From a virus, in IMG/VR virus record IMGVR_UViG_3300036980_000310, positions 1 to 20,297 of that record: DNA of 20,297 bases, one strand, 5' to 3'. Numbering within the stretch: position 1 is the first letter of the stretch; each line of letters starts with the position of its first letter. This document shows positions 9,881-17,803 of the stretch, piece after piece. The notes beneath the pieces are model-generated. The model ran no database searches, was not told where the DNA came from, and was given only the letters and a program-made list of their open reading frames with translations. Position numbers and translations under genes: made by a program.

Positions 9881-10240
9881 ATGGCGTCCGCCGACCGGGT
9901 GCTGGAGACGACAACGTCTACCGGCACCGGCGACCTCACTACCGCCGGTGCCGTGACGGGTTTCCGTACGTTCAACAACGCCCACGGCGTCGGCGTGCCG
10001 TTCGACCTTTGCATTGAAGCGGTGGACGCGAACGGCGTGCCCACCGGCGACTGGGAAGTCACTGAAGCGCACTTGACCACGTCGACGAACCTCGTGCGCT
10101 CGAGGCTGAAGAGCTCGAGCACCGGGTCGGTGGTCAGCTTCGCGGCCGGGACGAAGCGGATCTTCTCGACCCAGATCGCCGACGAAGAGCACACCATCGG
10201 TGGCGCCTACGCCACCTCTCTCGGCATGAACTTGCCGTAA
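9881..10240 (+). CDS. Putative virion protein, beta-rich, 119 aa
   Basis: Begins MASADRVLETTTSTGTGDLT and continues AGAVTGFRTFNNAHGVG. The central LTTSTNLVRSRLKSSST is followed by VVSFAAGTKRIFSTQI. This order of a Thr-rich start, GFRTF and FAAGTK matches, from memory, a phage protein commonly placed beside tail fibres, probably a small beta-sandwich building block of the tail tip or baseplate. No signal peptide or membrane segment is present. The ATG is directly after the stop of the preceding gene, with no separate ribosome-binding site, indicating translational coupling. Function is not established. Confidence 0.8.
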   Translation: MASADRVLETTTSTGTGDLTTAGAVTGFRTFNNAHGVGVPFDLCIEAVDANGVPTGDWEVTEAHLTTSTNLVRSRLKSSSTGSVVSFAAGTKRIFSTQIADEEHTIGGAYATSLGMNLP

Positions 10241-10252
10241 GGACAGACGACG

Positions 10253-10687
10253 ATGCCCTCCAACACCAAGCCGATTTTCACAAAAGCTGGGGACGTCTCG
10301 ACCAACGGAACGACCGGCATGTCCGCGCTCGTACTGAACGCCGCGAACGACTACACCGGCATCGACGCAGACGTCGCGCTGGTGTTCACGGCCGACGCGA
10401 CGAACGGCGGGTTCGTGCAGCGCCTGCGCTTCAAGGCTGGCGGGACCAACGTCGCGACCGTCGCGCGCATCTACCTCAACAACGGCTCGACTCCGGCCAC
10501 GGCCACGAACAACGCGTTCTACGGCGAGATCTCGCTGCCCGCGACCACGGCGATTGCCACGGCCGCGGTCGTCGACGTCGACTACCCGATGAACTTCGCG
10601 CTGCCCGCAGGCTTCAGGATCTACTTCGGTCTCGCGACCGCGGTCGCCGCTGGCTGGAACTGCATCGCAATCGGCGGAAAATACTGA
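10253..10687 (+). CDS. Putative virion protein, beta-rich, 144 aa
   Basis: A Thr/Ala-rich, beta-strand-patterned protein starting MPSNTKPIFTKAGDVSTNG, with LRFKAGGTNVATVARIYLNNG in the middle and PAGFRIYFGLATAVAAGWN near the end, the last part resembling a jelly-roll strand pair. There is no cysteine cluster or membrane segment beyond beta-type hydrophobic strands. An AAGGA ribosome-binding site overlaps the previous stop codon. It lies just upstream of three glycine-rich adhesin-like genes, which suggests an attachment or collar protein for the receptor-binding complex. I cannot assign a named family. Confidence 0.78.
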   Translation: MPSNTKPIFTKAGDVSTNGTTGMSALVLNAANDYTGIDADVALVFTADATNGGFVQRLRFKAGGTNVATVARIYLNNGSTPATATNNAFYGEISLPATTAIATAAVVDVDYPMNFALPAGFRIYFGLATAVAAGWNCIAIGGKY

Positions 10688-10693
10688 GCCGCC

Positions 10694-11638
10694 ATGCTGG
10701 GCGCCTTCCACCTGCCGCAGTCTGGGCTGGCAGACGTCCAGATTTTCAACCGGCCGAGCACCGTCTCTGGTGTCCTTCACCAGTCGTTTACGTGGCACAA
10801 GCCGCGCGGTAAGTCCATGCTCTACATCTACTGCCGCGGAGGCGGCGGTGGCGGTGGCGGCGGGCTGACCGGAGCGGCGGCTGCCGCCCGTGGCGGGGGC
10901 GGATCTGGCGGCAGTGCCGGGTTCTCGTGCCTCTTCGTTCCTCTGTTTATGATCCCGAGCGAACTCTACGTTCACGTCGGCGCCGGTGGCGTTGGCGGTA
11001 CCTCTGGCGTTGCCGGCGGCTCCGGTCTCGTTTCGCAGGTCCGGTTTGCGCCGTATGGCTTAACCAGCGACGATGTTCCTCTGAATTGCTTGATCCGTTC
11101 GCAGAACGGATTATCTGGAGGCGGCAGCGCTGGCACGGGCACGGCCGGCGGTGCGGCTGGCGCGGCCGCGACTGTCGCGAACGTCAACGGCGGAATGCCG
11201 CACGCCACGCACGGCATCTGGCGCCTGAACGTCGGGCTCATCGGCGCCACCGGCGGCGACGACGCCAACGGACCCGGATCAGGAAAAGCTCTCGGCGCGA
11301 CTTCGCTCTGCTCTATTCCGGGAACCGGAGGTGGCGGAACTACTTCCGCCGATACCGTCGGCGGAGCATTCACTGCGCTGGCTGACGCGCTGATCTCCGA
11401 GCGACGCCCTGCGCCCACCATTGCGGCGACGCCGGGGGCACCCGGATCTGGCGGCGGAGTGGCGGGGAATATGCACTTCCTGTATGGCGGCCTTGGCGGC
11501 GGCGGAAGTAACACCGGCGTCGGCGGAGAAGGCGGAAATGGCGGGCCGGGAACCAGTGGCGGCGGTGGTGGTGGCGGAACCACTGGTGGAAAGGGTGGCG
11601 ACGGCGGAGCTGGTCTCGTGATTATGGTGGCGTGGTGA
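10694..11638 (+). CDS. Glycine-rich adhesin-like protein, copy 1 of 3 (314 aa)
   Basis: About a third of the residues are glycine. The N-terminal 50 residues are a normal folded segment ending WHKPRGKSMLYIYC, then a poly-glycine run, then SAGFSCLFVPLFMIP and LYVHVGAGGVGG, several further glycine clusters, and a conserved end GGDGGAGLVIMVAW. This layout (W-x-KPRG, Gly run, hydrophobic segment, Gly-rich loops, GGDGG-x-G end) is shared with the next two genes. Gly-rich loops packed as polyglycine II helices are known from receptor-binding adhesins such as the gp38 type of T-even phages, so a tail-tip receptor binder is a reasonable inference. A clear ribosome-binding site is missing, and the start is six bases after the previous stop. 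Confidence 0.8.
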   Translation: MLGAFHLPQSGLADVQIFNRPSTVSGVLHQSFTWHKPRGKSMLYIYCRGGGGGGGGGLTGAAAAARGGGGSGGSAGFSCLFVPLFMIPSELYVHVGAGGVGGTSGVAGGSGLVSQVRFAPYGLTSDDVPLNCLIRSQNGLSGGGSAGTGTAGGAAGAAATVANVNGGMPHATHGIWRLNVGLIGATGGDDANGPGSGKALGATSLCSIPGTGGGGTTSADTVGGAFTALADALISERRPAPTIAATPGAPGSGGGVAGNMHFLYGGLGGGGSNTGVGGEGGNGGPGTSGGGGGGGTTGGKGGDGGAGLVIMVAW

Positions 11639-11642
11639 TCCA

Positions 11643-12605
11643 ATGACGACCGACGTATTCGATTTGCCGGGGAACACGTGCCCGTCTCGCGTTGACGCGT
11701 TCTGGGGCTGGGCGACGTCCGTGGCAACAGCTACGCCGCAGTGGCAAGTGTGGAACAAGCCGCGCGGCGCGCGCATGCTCTTCATCAAGAGCATCGGCGG
11801 TGGCGCCGGAGGCGGCGGCGGATTCAACGCAGCCTCCGGCAACCGCGGCGGTGGCGGCGGTGGCGGCAGCTCCGGCTGCGCGAACATCATCGTGCCGGCG
11901 ATGTTATTGCCTGACGTGCTGTACGTTCACTCTGGCGCGGGCGGCCTCGGCGTGTCGTCAGGTGGCGGCACGGCTGGCTCTGGCATCGCGTCCTACGTCA
12001 GCGTCTCTCCGCTTCCGGTCGTGAACGCGAACATCGTGATTTTCTCTGGCGCGGGCGCCTCTGGAGGCGGGACAGGCACGGCGGCGGCCGTCGGTGCTGC
12101 CGGAACGGGAGGGTCTATCTCGGGCATCGCGAGCTACCCATTCGCTGGCCTCGGGATCGCCGGCTCGACGAGTAACCAAGGCGGAGCCAGCGGCACGGCC
12201 GGCGGCGCGGTGGCTGGCGGCAACGGCACAGCGCAGACGATGCAGACCACGGGCACCCTGAACATGGGCGGATCCGGTGGCGCCGGCTGCAGCGGCAGCG
12301 CGTTCGCTGGCGGCCTGATAACCGCCGTGACGACGGCGCTAATCAACGAGTACCGTCCGAATGGCGGCAACGGCGCCTTGGCCGGAGCGGCCGGCGAAGA
12401 AGGGAACATCGTCCAACACAACAACACGCCCGGATTTATCTGGTCGTTCTGCGGCATGGGCGGCGGCTCGAGCGTCGCCGGCGCTGGCGGTGTCGGCGGC
12501 CGTGGCGGCAGGGGCGGCAGCGGTGGCGGTGGCGGCGGGGCTGGCGTAACTGGCGGCAAGGGCGGAGACGGCGGCGCCGGCCTCGTCCTTTTCGTGACGT
12601 GGTGA
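11643..12605 (+). CDS. Glycine-rich adhesin-like protein, copy 2 of 3 (320 aa)
   Basis: Same plan as its neighbours. A short folded N-terminus (DVFDLPGNTCPS) is followed by WNKPRGARMLFIKSIGGG, a poly-glycine run, and IIVPAMLLPDVLYVHSGAGG. The middle third (residues about 115-215) is a Gly/Ala/Thr-rich repeat zone not alignable by eye to copy 1. A C-terminal part then contains FAGGLITAVTTALINEYRP, and the end is GGDGGAGLVLFVTW. Five cysteines are scattered without a pairing pattern I can recognise. The gene starts four bases after the previous stop with no strong ribosome-binding site, so coupling is likely. A tail-tip receptor-binding role is inferred from composition, architecture and position. 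Confidence 0.8.
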   Translation: MTTDVFDLPGNTCPSRVDAFWGWATSVATATPQWQVWNKPRGARMLFIKSIGGGAGGGGGFNAASGNRGGGGGGGSSGCANIIVPAMLLPDVLYVHSGAGGLGVSSGGGTAGSGIASYVSVSPLPVVNANIVIFSGAGASGGGTGTAAAVGAAGTGGSISGIASYPFAGLGIAGSTSNQGGASGTAGGAVAGGNGTAQTMQTTGTLNMGGSGGAGCSGSAFAGGLITAVTTALINEYRPNGGNGALAGAAGEEGNIVQHNNTPGFIWSFCGMGGGSSVAGAGGVGGRGGRGGSGGGGGGAGVTGGKGGDGGAGLVLFVTW

Positions 12606-12608
12606 CGC

Positions 12609-13514
12609 ATGGACGTCTTTGATCTCCCGCTGGCTGGCGCGCGCGTGCAGGTCTATACAGGATCTGCCGGAGCCGCGGCATCGACGTGGACGACGTGGTC
12701 GCGCCCCCGCGGACACACGATGCTGTTCATCCGCGCTGTCGGCGGTGGGGGCGGCGGCGGCGGCGGATTCACTGGCGGTGCAGGAACCGCGCGCGGCGGC
12801 GGCGGCGGTGGCTCTAGCGGCAACTGCACCAACGTCATCATGCCGTGCATGCTCATTCCTGAGACGCTTCACGTCAAGCCCGGCGGCGGAGAGATCGGCC
12901 GCACCAGCGGCGGCGCTGCGTCAGGGACTCACAGCGCCGTCTCGATTACGCCGTTCGGTCACACTGTCGCGGCGAACATCGTAGCCTTCGCGTCTCCGGG
13001 CAACGGCGGCGCGACCGGTACCGCGACGGCCGGCGGGGCTGGCGGGACTGCTCCGGGGGCCGACACTATTGCCAATTGTCCGTGGGCCGGTCTCGGCGTC
13101 GCGATGTTCCTTCAGGGCACGGCCGGCACCATCGGTGGCGACGACACCGGAGCCGTAGGCGGCGCCATCGCGTTCCCGAGCACGGGCAACAACGTCATGG
13201 GAGGCTCTGGCGGCGGCGGAGTCACGACCACAGAATTCGCTGGCGGCCTGATCACGGCCATCGCCGGCACCCTCATCTCTGACTCGCGCCCGCAGGTCGG
13301 CGCCGCGGCGGCGGCAGGCTCTGGCGGCCACTGGCTCTTCGACAAGGGCGGCTTCGCGTACGGCGGACTCGGCGGCGGGTCAGTCAACTCGGCGACCGGA
13401 GCGAACGGCGGCAATGGCGGTCCGGGCTGCGGCGGTGGCGGCGGCGGAGCCGGCAACGGCGCGGGACGCGGCGGTGACGGCGGGCCCGGCTACATCATCA
13501 TGGTGAGCTGGTAA
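12609..13514 (+). CDS. Glycine-rich adhesin-like protein, copy 3 of 3 (301 aa)
   Basis: Third paralogue. It starts MDVFDLPLAG, has WSRPRGHTMLFIRAVGGG, a poly-glycine run, and IMPCMLIPETLHVKPGGGE, then a variable Gly/Ala/Thr zone, FAGGLITAIAGTLISDSRP (closely like copy 2), FAYGGLGGGS (like copy 1), and ends GGDGGPGYIIMVSW. It therefore mixes features of both other copies, which could reflect recombination between paralogues. Its stop overlaps the next ATG by one base (TAATG). The inferred role is receptor recognition at the tail tip, as for the two upstream copies, and the evidence for it is the same. Confidence 0.8.
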   Translation: MDVFDLPLAGARVQVYTGSAGAAASTWTTWSRPRGHTMLFIRAVGGGGGGGGGFTGGAGTARGGGGGGSSGNCTNVIMPCMLIPETLHVKPGGGEIGRTSGGAASGTHSAVSITPFGHTVAANIVAFASPGNGGATGTATAGGAGGTAPGADTIANCPWAGLGVAMFLQGTAGTIGGDDTGAVGGAIAFPSTGNNVMGGSGGGGVTTTEFAGGLITAIAGTLISDSRPQVGAAAAAGSGGHWLFDKGGFAYGGLGGGSVNSATGANGGNGGPGCGGGGGGAGNGAGRGGDGGPGYIIMVSW

Positions 13515-15604
13515 TGTTCGGCCGCCACCCTTACTCTGGGCGGCCGTACGGCTCGAACGCGAACGTCGCGGGCGCGGCGAGCATCAACTGCTCGGTCAAC
13601 AAGACCCTCGGCGCAATGACTTGCGTCGCGACGGGCACGTCTCAGATCAATGGCTCGGTCGTCAAAACTCTCGGAGCAATGACGTCGGCGTCGACGGCGG
13701 CAGCTCGAATCAAAGGCCGTGTCACGGTCGCGGGCCGCAACTTGTCGTTCATGTGGGGCGCCGAATCGACCACGCTCGGCGCGGCAGACTTCAGCCTCAA
13801 CGACACGACCGCGACGGCAAATAATGCCGTCACGATCTCGGGTACTGCGGCGCTAGCTGGGTCTAACGGCATCCTCGTAGACGGGGCGGATGAGTACTAC
13901 CGCTTCGATACGACAGATATCATCGACCGGGTCAAGGGCGCGCACTCGATCTTGTTCCGGGTCCAGAGCCTGACGAACGGCGCGATACTGTTCTACCATC
14001 GCGGCACGGTAATCCAAGATCACATTTCGCTCTCCGTCAACTCGAACGGAAGCGTGTTCTATGAAATCCGCGTCAACGGCGGCGGCGGAAATAGTTTTAC
14101 CACGCCGGCCGGTTTGATTGCGCTCGACACGACGTACGGCGCAATCGCCCGTTGGGACAGCGACCTCGAAATCCTGCGCTTCGAGCTCTATAACTCGAGC
14201 GGCGCACTTCTGTTCGTGCAAGAGTCGAGCGCGGCGTTCGTTCCGCCGGTCGCGTTCGATCTCGCGAATGGCTTCCAGCTCGGCCACTCCTCTGGTGGCG
14301 GCGGCTCTCCAAGTTTTTATCTTGACAACGTCCGCGTCTCGAAGTCGGTCTGGGAAGAGCTGCAGAACAACCTGTTCATCACCGACGTAGCGAACTACAC
14401 GTCGCGCACGCTCGGAGCGATGACGTCGGCCGCCACTGGCGCCGTGCAGGTCAAGGCCTCGGTTGCGAAGACACTCGACGCGATGACTTGCGTCTCCACC
14501 GGGACCGTCTCGACCGCGTCGTCGAACGGCATCGTCAACGCGACCCTCGGAGCGATGACGTGTGTCGCCACCGTCGCGACGCAAGTCAAAGGCTCAACCA
14601 ACGCCACGCTTGGCGCGATGACGTCGGCGGCCACGGCTGCCGTGCAGGTGAAAGGCTCTACCAGCGCCACGCTCGGTGCGCTGGTGTCGACATCGGCCGC
14701 CGCGGTTCAGGTCAAAGGCACGACGGCGAAGACTCTCGGGGACATGACGTGCGTGTCGACTGGCACCGTCGTCACCCCCGGAATCATCTGCCAGCTGATC
14801 CTCGGCACCCTCGGAGCGATGACGTCGTCCTCGGCGGTCGCGACGCAGGTCAAGGGCACGGTAGCGAAGACTCTCGGGGCGATGACGTCGTCTGCCGCCG
14901 TCTCGACGACGATCAGCGGATCGCTGGCGAAGACTCTCGGAGCAATGACGCTCGTCGCGACCGCGTCGGCCGGCGGAGCAAACGGCATCGTCAACGCCAC
15001 GCTCGGGGCGATGACGGCGGCCTCGACTGCGACGGCGCAGATCAAGGGCACGCTGGCGAAGACTCTCGGAGCGATGACGGCCGTCTCGACGACCGCCGTG
15101 CAGGTCAAGGGCACGACAGCCCGCACGCTCGGCGCCATGACGTCGGTCGCGACGGCCGCCGTGCAGGTCAAGGGCACGACCGCGCGGACGCTTGGCGCCC
15201 TGACGCTCGTCTCGACCGGCACCGTCAGCGATGCGCCGCGCGTCGCCACGCTGGCCCAGACGCTCGGCGCGATGACGGCCGTCTCGACCGCCGTCGCTCC
15301 AGTGAAGGCCACGTCCGCGCCCACGCTCGGCGGCATGGCGTCTGTCTCGACGGCAGCGGTGCTGGTCGCTGGAGCATTCTCTCGCACGCTCGGAGAGATG
15401 ACCTGCGACGCAACCGCCGGGGCCATGTTCCCCATCACCGGCACGGTCGCCAAGGTGCTAGACGGCATGACGTGCGTCGCGCGCGGGGGCGACGACGACT
15501 GGACAGAATTCCCCGGAGACTCAGGGATTTGGACGGAGCGGCTCGACGCGGCCGGCACGTGGACCCCGCGCGGCGCGGCGGCCGGCACGTGGGCTCCCCT
15601 GTAA
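13514..15604 (+). CDS. Repeat-containing tail-fibre/adhesin-like protein with LamG-like domain, 696 aa
   Basis: Probably a virion appendage. Residues 31-72 hold two copies of a 21-residue repeat of the type TLGAMTS-A-T-A-V-VKG. Residues about 75-290 form a globular, non-repetitive domain (IDRVKGAHSILFRVQSL, then LFYHRGT, DTTYGAIARWDS and FYLDNVRVSKSVWEEL) that resembles a LamG/concanavalin-like lectin sandwich. Seventeen further repeats run from residue 299 to about 660, and the tail has two GTW motifs (AAGTWTPRG, AAGTWAPL). The globular domain thus interrupts a repeat array. Repeat units alternate a beta-strand pattern and could form an extended shaft, with the lectin domain binding glycan. 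The gene follows the glycine-rich trio with a one-base overlap. The fold assignments are by eye. Confidence 0.85.
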   Translation: MFGRHPYSGRPYGSNANVAGAASINCSVNKTLGAMTCVATGTSQINGSVVKTLGAMTSASTAAARIKGRVTVAGRNLSFMWGAESTTLGAADFSLNDTTATANNAVTISGTAALAGSNGILVDGADEYYRFDTTDIIDRVKGAHSILFRVQSLTNGAILFYHRGTVIQDHISLSVNSNGSVFYEIRVNGGGGNSFTTPAGLIALDTTYGAIARWDSDLEILRFELYNSSGALLFVQESSAAFVPPVAFDLANGFQLGHSSGGGGSPSFYLDNVRVSKSVWEELQNNLFITDVANYTSRTLGAMTSAATGAVQVKASVAKTLDAMTCVSTGTVSTASSNGIVNATLGAMTCVATVATQVKGSTNATLGAMTSAATAAVQVKGSTSATLGALVSTSAAAVQVKGTTAKTLGDMTCVSTGTVVTPGIICQLILGTLGAMTSSSAVATQVKGTVAKTLGAMTSSAAVSTTISGSLAKTLGAMTLVATASAGGANGIVNATLGAMTAASTATAQIKGTLAKTLGAMTAVSTTAVQVKGTTARTLGAMTSVATAAVQVKGTTARTLGALTLVSTGTVSDAPRVATLAQTLGAMTAVSTAVAPVKATSAPTLGGMASVSTAAVLVAGAFSRTLGEMTCDATAGAMFPITGTVAKVLDGMTCVARGGDDDWTEFPGDSGIWTERLDAAGTWTPRGAAAGTWAPL
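13604..13729 (+). repeat. First two copies of the 21-residue repeat
   Basis: Two adjacent 63-base units begin at 13604 and 13667, each encoding TLGAMT at the start. They are separated from the main array by about 680 bases that encode the LamG-like domain, showing that this domain sits inside the array rather than at its end. Confidence 0.85.
14408..15490 (+). repeat. Main array of seventeen 63-base coding repeats
   Basis: The unit is 63 bases (21 codons) with consensus TLGAMTS-V-AT-A-AVQVKGT-TAK. Three to four units are extended to 24-25 codons by inserts such as SSNGIVNA, PGIICQLILG and DAPRVATLA. GGNGIVNA-type inserts recur twice, so longer repeats of several units may also have been duplicated. 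The first half (TLGAMT) is nearly invariant and the second half varies. Degenerate units lie at the end (VLDGMTCVA). Such arrays can gain or lose units by recombination or slippage. Confidence 0.9.
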
Positions 15605-16284: not shown

Positions 16285-16661
16285 CCTTTGCGGTAAAGAA
16301 GCGGGTCGAAGTGACAGTGCTGACCGTCTCTGGAACGCCATGCAGCGGAAATGACAGCGACTTCTCTGGGTGTGGAGCCGTCACGACGGGCGAAGGCGGC
16401 GGTCAAGCGGACCCGGCACTTGTCATCTCGAACGGCAGCGGGTCGTACACGTATCTTTGGCAGCAGGTCGGGACGCCGGCGCAATCCGGTCCGTACAACT
16501 GCAGTAGCGCGACGACTAGAAATCCGACGTGGAACAATATCGTGTGCGACGGCGACGACCCGACCAGTGAAGACTGGCAAGTGACCGTGACAGACTCGGT
16601 GACTGGCGAGGTTGCGACAACACAGATCGGCGTGACGCTCATCTGGACGAACCTGACTTGA
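16281..16661 (+). CDS. PKD/Ig-like domain protein, 126 aa
   Basis: Starts with GTG in a GTGA overlap with the upstream stop. An ATG-led extension to 16140 would overlap 145 bases of the fibre gene and was rejected. After the start (TFAVKKRVEVTVLTVSG) the protein carries a beta-sandwich-like pattern: ALVISNGSGSYTYLWQQVG, then SEDWQVTVTDSVTGEVATTQ and IGVTLIWTNL, resembling a PKD or bacterial Ig-like domain. Four cysteines in two pairs (positions about 16 and 25, then about 74 and 90) may form disulphides. Such domains decorate tails or fibres and bind cell-surface sugars. The role is inferred. Confidence 0.78.
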   Translation: MTFAVKKRVEVTVLTVSGTPCSGNDSDFSGCGAVTTGEGGGQADPALVISNGSGSYTYLWQQVGTPAQSGPYNCSSATTRNPTWNNIVCDGDDPTSEDWQVTVTDSVTGEVATTQIGVTLIWTNLT

Positions 16662-17137
16662 CGACCATCGCCTACGACGGCGAGTCTCTGGCCGCAGACT
16701 CGCAGGAAACGTCGGAGACAGAGGCGGGCGGCGCGACGAAGCACGTGTGCGCGAAGCTGTTCAGGAAGCGCGTCGGCGAAGGCCGGAAAGCGTACGACGT
16801 CATCATCGCCACGGCGGGTGAGACGTTTCCGGGGATGGTGTTCGTCGACTGGTACGGGAGCGGGAAAGATATACCGCGCGTGCTGATCGACCACGACCCG
16901 GACTTCACGGTCCTGATCCTGACGCCGCACGGGCTGCTCGAGGCTGACAAGTACTGCCGGCCGATTGAGCGGACGGAGAAGTTCTACGCCATCGGGTCAG
17001 GCCGCAAGGAAGCGCTGGCGGCGATGGCCTGCGGAAAGTCCGCGGCTGACGCGGTGAGGATCGCGGCGAGGTTCGACAACTACACTGGTGGTCGCGTGAT
17101 CACAATGAAGCTCGACGACAATGGAAAGGGAAAGTGA
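16658..17137 (+). CDS. HslV/proteasome-like Ntn hydrolase (threonine protease fold), 159 aa
   Basis: After Met removal the sequence begins TTIAYDGESLAADSQ. The N-terminal Thr is the nucleophile position of proteasome beta and HslV subunits, and a lysine at residue 33 (CAKLF) lies where HslV has its catalytic Lys. YAIGSGRKEALAAM at 110-123 matches the HslV AIGSGG-ALAA loop, followed by SAADAVRIAARFDNYTGGRV as in the family's last helix and strand. Length is slightly short (HslV about 175). It starts with TTG in a 4-base TTGA overlap. No ATPase partner (HslU) is visible here, so it may use host unfoldases, act on virion or lysis proteins, or have lost activity. Identity is good. The substrate is unknown. 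Confidence 0.82.
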   Translation: MTTIAYDGESLAADSQETSETEAGGATKHVCAKLFRKRVGEGRKAYDVIIATAGETFPGMVFVDWYGSGKDIPRVLIDHDPDFTVLILTPHGLLEADKYCRPIERTEKFYAIGSGRKEALAAMACGKSAADAVRIAARFDNYTGGRVITMKLDDNGKGK

Positions 17138-17503: not shown

Positions 17504-17803
17504 ATGCGGAGCTCGGCACGAGGCCGGGCGCGCAAGTGCAACATCGAGTTCGACCTCGTCGCTGAAGACATCGTCATCCCGACACACTGCCCCGTGCTCG
17601 GCATCGAGCTGAAGAGCGGAATCGGGACCGGGCGAGGGCCCAATGACGACTCACCGACGATTGACCGGATAGACAGCAGCCTCGGGTACGTGCGTGGCAA
17701 CGTCATGGTGATGAGCGCGAAAGCGAACAGCATGAAGCACAGCGCGAACCCTGACGAGCTGCTGAAGTTTGCAGAGTGGATTTTCTCCACGTACAAGAGG
17801 TAG
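17504..17803 (+). CDS. HNH-like endonuclease family protein, at least 99 aa; start uncertain
   Basis: Contains HCPVLGIELKSG (residues 28-39), DDSPTIDRIDSSLGYVRGNV (48-67) and SAKANSMKHSA (71-81). The arrangement CPVLG, then S-P-T-x-DRID, GYV-x-GNV, and ANxxKxxA is the recurring pattern of small phage HNH-type nucleases. The second cysteine pair of zinc-bound relatives is absent. The frame stays open upstream, and the added residues (QEKQSLRDKRWALNNPQSY before MRSSARGRARKC) look like family N-termini, so translation may begin earlier, perhaps at the CTG at 17435 that overlaps the previous stop as CTGA. Phage HNH proteins next to packaging or lysis genes can aid DNA cutting or spread as homing elements. 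Here the role is unknown. Confidence 0.78.
   Translation: MRSSARGRARKCNIEFDLVAEDIVIPTHCPVLGIELKSGIGTGRGPNDDSPTIDRIDSSLGYVRGNVMVMSAKANSMKHSANPDELLKFAEWIFSTYKR

Follow-up and report, generated by a model that had tools for sequence, protein, structure and literature searches.

Most descriptions of phage receptor-binding tips present them as homo-oligomers. In cyanophage Pam3, the fibre protein gp24 (PDB 7ypx/7yfw) is a homotrimer that combines a TNF-like sandwich with a glycine-rich lattice carrying variable loops; a receptor-binding role has been proposed, in which the glycine-rich loops bind the host (PMC9608196). The distal adhesin gp38 of S16, T2, and PP01, a PGII sandwich, is rich in glycine and encoded by a stand-alone gene, with both conserved glycine motifs and variable segments (PMC6851490, PMC12892980). 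In the PP01 protein, a distal loop is indispensable for adsorption to OmpC (PMC12892980). In TFP_Y, a related protein of a Klebsiella phage, host-adaptive mutations in the glycine-rich domain brought back sensitivity to the phage (PMC12671077). A connector followed by a glycine-rich gene, the same pair as described here, is found in cultured siphophages of the RcC cluster of Rhodobacter phages, for example as genes 22-23 of RcOceanus (PMC8601537).

We analysed a fragment of 20,297 bases from an uncultured virus, hereafter the window. Its gene set, which includes terminase, portal, scaffold, major capsid protein, and SU10-type adaptor, fits a short-tailed phage (podophage). The portal shares at most 40% identity with those of environmental phages and 38.5% with that of Sinorhizobium phage phiM5. 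The head and adaptor genes precede a cassette of three glycine-rich genes (Table 1). Gaps of 4 and 3 nt separate copy 1 from copy 2 and copy 2 from copy 3, respectively, and the end of copy 3 overlaps the start of the next gene by 1 nt.

Table 1. Genes of the glycine-rich cassette and its upstream neighbours in the window.
Feature	Position	Strand	Remarks
Conserved module gene, 119 aa, putative fibre attachment part	9881..10240	+	Upstream of the cassette; 36% identity with the gene in the same place in locus L004; relatives in 18 loci
Connector ("UP"), 144 aa, predicted jelly-roll beta-sandwich	10253..10687	+	AF2 pLDDT 85, pTM 0.80
Glycine-rich copy 1, 314 aa	10694..11638	+	AF2 pLDDT 90, pTM 0.88; Foldseek matches (see text)
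Glycine-rich copy 2, 320 aa	11643..12605	+	43% identity with copy 1, E 7e-39
Glycine-rich copy 3, 301 aa	12609..13514	+	45% identity with copy 1, E 9.7e-45

Whereas Pam3 gp24 is encoded by one gene and both docks and trimerises through its own N-terminal helical bundle, the model of copy 1 shows no such helices, and the window cassette has a separate upstream connector and belongs to a family whose arrays hold one to three tandem genes. The gp38 protein is monomeric and has a beta-helix as well as three attachment helices; attachment helices of this kind are absent from the model of copy 1. The RcC Rhodobacter phages differ from the window in having a single glycine-rich copy and a different tail type. 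The fold class is already known; a stand-alone tandem array behind a shared connector, with a ceiling of three and strict positions, appears to be undescribed in the searchable literature. The best overall explanation, to which we give a probability of roughly 0.7, is that each of the three genes codes for a stand-alone receptor-binding tip protein; these proteins would be mounted by the connector and kept as old paralogues fixed in position and, more tentatively, would be placed on a three-slot tip.

Downstream of the cassette, the window encodes a 696-aa protein (13514-15604) without family match, in which many 21-aa (63-nt) repeats of the pattern TLGAMTxxxTxxVQVKGT flank a non-repetitive segment; the gene behind the array of locus L004 (9955-11406) has a repetitive layout resembling it. 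Close to the lysis genes, at 16658-17137 and 17504-17803, are a gene for a protein of the peptidase HslV family and one resembling endonuclease VII.

Copy number and position in connector-linked arrays

Direct searches with the glycine-rich proteins yielded no tblastn match in phages and only two loci in viral contigs; the poor yield is explained by glycine-rich words being uninformative or filtered. The family was therefore collected via the linked 144-aa connector, which had 304 relatives in viral contigs, and the set was widened by two more scans. In the resulting sample, which is non-random as loci were chosen by connector likeness and which contains many related contigs, the connector was followed by one to three glycine-rich family genes in 115 of 134 distinct complete loci. 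The other 19 mostly had a different gene directly behind the connector, such as another glycine-rich protein or, by eye, a possible LamG-like protein. Since a different gene usually occupies this place when the glycine-rich family is absent, the connector looks like a socket whose payload can be exchanged.

The module is present in the window podophage, in the siphophages RcOceanus and RcBaka of Rhodobacter (morphology from PMC8601537), in L004, and at a locus of the planctomycete Zavarzinella formosa, the single relative found in a search of the genome collection. The latter locus (L092, 8001-9331) has the connector and one glycine-rich gene, and is probably a prophage. Some loci show other layouts. 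In L022 (3881-5234) and L025 (6-1362), it is the connector that is triplicated in tandem, ahead of two glycine-rich genes. Many loci (L065, L077, L079, L094, and others) have a gene of about 60 aa, with the pattern DLDGNTL...YGYxVIDxNPPxPxW, between connector and array. A different glycine-rich protein stands behind the connector in L191, L196, L201, L211, L216, and L224, mostly followed by a gene of about 103 aa, and represents a second payload type.

Of the 115 distinct arrays, 48 had a single gene, 19 had two genes, and 48 had three; no array had four or more. L021 was counted as a three-copy array; a four-copy reading was rejected, as its first glycine-rich gene (1960-2939) appears split into two ORFs, which may reflect a broken copy or an assembly error. 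No hidden fourth copy was detected, in that no glycine-rich family gene followed the last counted copy in any array. On the connector tree, the three-copy state requires 17 changes, at least 13 of them forced by well-supported branches. Gain-loss models with equal numbers of parameters favoured a stop at three (logL -85.7) over an uncapped process (-93.3) by 7.5 log units, and not one of 400 uncapped simulations reproduced the abundance of threes together with the lack of fours seen in the data.

The genes within arrays are tightly spaced, with a median intergenic gap of 3 nt and 110 of 116 gaps between -70 and +20, as expected for proteins produced in matched amounts. They also keep their positions. 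When the proteins of five fixed-array groups were split into fifths, 471 of 485 segments (97%) found their best match at the same position in another phage (177/180, 135/135, 53/60, 56/60, and 50/50 per group), and in several phage groups the trees placed first, second, and third genes each into their own clades. Array copies rarely if ever trade segments.

The ceiling of three is most simply explained by three slots on a three-fold symmetric tip. It fits one-gene homotrimers together with three-gene heterotrimers of a presumed trimer; the heterotrimer is a tentative reading that we hold at somewhat less than even odds, and the two-copy arrays count against it, since they would need a 2:1 assembly. 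The main rival holds that each copy forms its own homo-oligomeric tip, so that the phage has several receptor options, with an upper limit of three set by genome space or by fibre positions. The middles do differ between copies, the array positions differ in rate (group A mean identity of 64, 69, and 55% by position), and Pam3 gp24, which has the same fold, is a homotrimer (PMC9608196). However, separate specificities account neither for the abrupt limit of three nor for two-gene arrays being rarer than three-gene arrays, and they leave the near absence of exchange between positions unexplained. We regard this rival as rather doubtful, though a serious contender. No heterotrimeric phage tip encoded by tandem paralogues was found in the searchable literature, where the phage "heterotrimers" retrieved were baseplate wedges.

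Predicted fold and place of the glycine-rich proteins

The AlphaFold model of copy 1 was compared with the PDB by Foldseek. The best match was to tail-tip chains of mycobacteriophage Bxb1 (PDB 9d93; E 4.5e-9, probability 1.00), followed by the Pam3 fibre (E 2e-5, probability 1.00) and by the TNF-like and glycine-rich domains of ALK/LTK. The TM-scores against the best PDB entries were only 0.36-0.50 (0.36/0.44 for the Pam3 fibre), and Bxb1, unlike the window virus, is a long-tailed phage of mycobacteria. The gp38 of S16 (6F45) was not among the Foldseek matches of copy 1, whose model has no helix of four or more residues before residue 164, where N-terminal docking helices were sought. At E < 1e-3, 225 predicted viral proteins matched the copy 1 fold, and relatives gave matches to families of tail fibres and minor tail proteins.

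At the sequence level, each window copy carries 7-10 glycine-rich motifs. Of 101 members of the glycine-rich family, 92 matched the Pfam family PF21722 (Gly_rich_2) at E <= 0.01, the best of them at 1.4e-14; copy 1 reached 21.3 bits, below the curated cut-off of 24.3, and copies 2 and 3 gave no match. No convincing match came from the PDB when it was searched by sequence with the families of the glycine-rich proteins, the connector, and the 119-aa protein. Matches of a 135-aa protein to HIV protease were taken as chance.

Because copy 1 matches tail tips, tail fibres, and ALK/LTK domains, they are best read as forming a receptor-binding tip. As predicted, the fold resembles receptor-binding ones, so that one of the refuting conditions named in the preliminary description does not apply, and the glycine-rich proteins of the window are likely adhesins. 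By homology, a role in host range is plausible. Location at the tail tip, mounting on the connector, and receptor contact via the middle segment are what we infer.

A place on the head, as capsid decoration of the cement or head-fibre kind, would instead follow from the likeness of the connector to the trimeric phage cement protein KHP40 (probability 0.99 but E 0.023) and from the position of the window cassette after the head and adaptor genes. The PDB matches of the connector are weak throughout, comprising TNF-family trimers, KHP40, and CBMs, none below E 1e-3. Copy 1, on the other hand, matches tail tip and tail fibre structures, and in the cultured Rhodobacter phages the cassette stands between tail hub and holin; in L004 it follows a very long gene of tail-protein-like kind. 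Decoration of the head is therefore improbable.

Divergence is concentrated in the middle of the proteins. In most groups and positions, a middle segment evolves fastest, with connectors at 76-87% identity. Across the whole glycine-rich family, the mean non-glycine entropy is 2.55 bits in the middle versus 2.13 at either end. Among cultured Rhodobacter phages with hub and holin at 99-100% identity, the glycine-rich protein drops to 93-94% in RcBaka, and most of its changes lie between residues 73 and 148. A separate replacement hot spot was observed in the RcC Rhodobacter phages at the gene before the connector (L090 4648-5979, L251 1151-2479, L252 1151-2479), which has only 33-40% identity between some isolates with 99-100% identical hub and holin.

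Age of the duplication and tests for exchange among the copies

The three window copies share 43-46% pairwise identity, about 61-65% at residues ~38-76 and 57-78% at the C-terminus, with 27-54% between them. Outside Gly-Gly columns, 67-79 of 221-235 aligned positions are identical, and shuffles with all glycines fixed and the other residues shuffled gave z = 13.0, 16.0, and 18.4. These alignments bear out the preliminary description of three tandem paralogues with conserved ends and a divergent middle.

That description also saw in copy 3 a combination of traits of copies 1 and 2, and took the cassette to evolve by duplication and recombination. The duplication is real but old. Each copy shares 48-55% identity with single-copy genes of other phages (L010, L011), above the identity with its own neighbours. 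The copies are not orthologous to separate genes of distant phages. In one tree, a supported group (97) contained all three window copies together with many single-copy phages. Monophyly of the window trio had 90/95 support in one tree and was lost in a larger one, and the AU test does not reject it (p 0.34).

The recombination part did not hold. Tandem paralogues with common ends, differing middles, and shared short motifs are what a host-range cassette diversifying by recombination among its three copies would show. However, synonymous sites between the copies are saturated: identical codons at conserved residues numbered 55/126, 51/126, and 71/138 for the three pairs, with 51, 52, and 67 expected under saturation, and the longest identical DNA tracts were 14-20 nt. 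The mosaic test was not significant for copy 3 as a blend of copies 1 and 2 (p = 0.08), and gave p = 0.26 and 0.22 for the other two arrangements. Copy 3 has FAYGGLGGGS, copy 1 has FLYGGLGGGG, and FAGGLITA occurs in copies 2 and 3; the motifs FAGG-ITA and F-YGG-GGG recur in 7 and 9 of 134 family members, single-copy phages included, and are thus most simply ancestral rather than private to the window. With the position-specific segments counted above, recombination among the copies is largely refuted and very improbable. Low-complexity coincidence without common descent, which the glycine content of 29-30% in each copy would favour by making alignment easy, is refuted by z of 13-18 with glycines fixed and by more than 100 loci with family genes in the same place behind the same neighbour.

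Proposed tip assembly and its meaning

Under the preferred reading, the three genes would encode stand-alone receptor-binding tip proteins. In each, the terminal strands are predicted to form a TNF-like beta-sandwich, from which a glycine-rich strand lattice, possibly with PGII helix geometry, would project and bear the variable loops. The jelly-roll connector would mount the tip proteins on the tail, as suggested by its constant position and by the way the gene behind it is swapped. After an old duplication, the three genes would have stayed as paralogues that are tied to their positions and do not exchange segments. Their products would probably come in matched amounts from one transcript, and receptor contact would run through the fastest-diverging middle segment. 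Tentatively, a three-fold tip could have three slots, all taken by the product of a single gene or each by that of a different one. It is possible, though we would not bet on it, that the tip turned from a one-gene homotrimer into an obligate three-paralogue heterotrimer several times independently, giving every virion tip three different binding faces, with copy number capped at three by symmetry.

A family of more than 100 viral contigs and cultured Rhodobacter phages, in the latter annotated as "hypothetical protein", hereby gains boundaries and a predicted role. If the reading is true, these arrays would amount to an experiment, repeated by nature, in which a homo-oligomeric adhesin becomes hetero-oligomeric, and would explain how a phage presents several binding faces at once.
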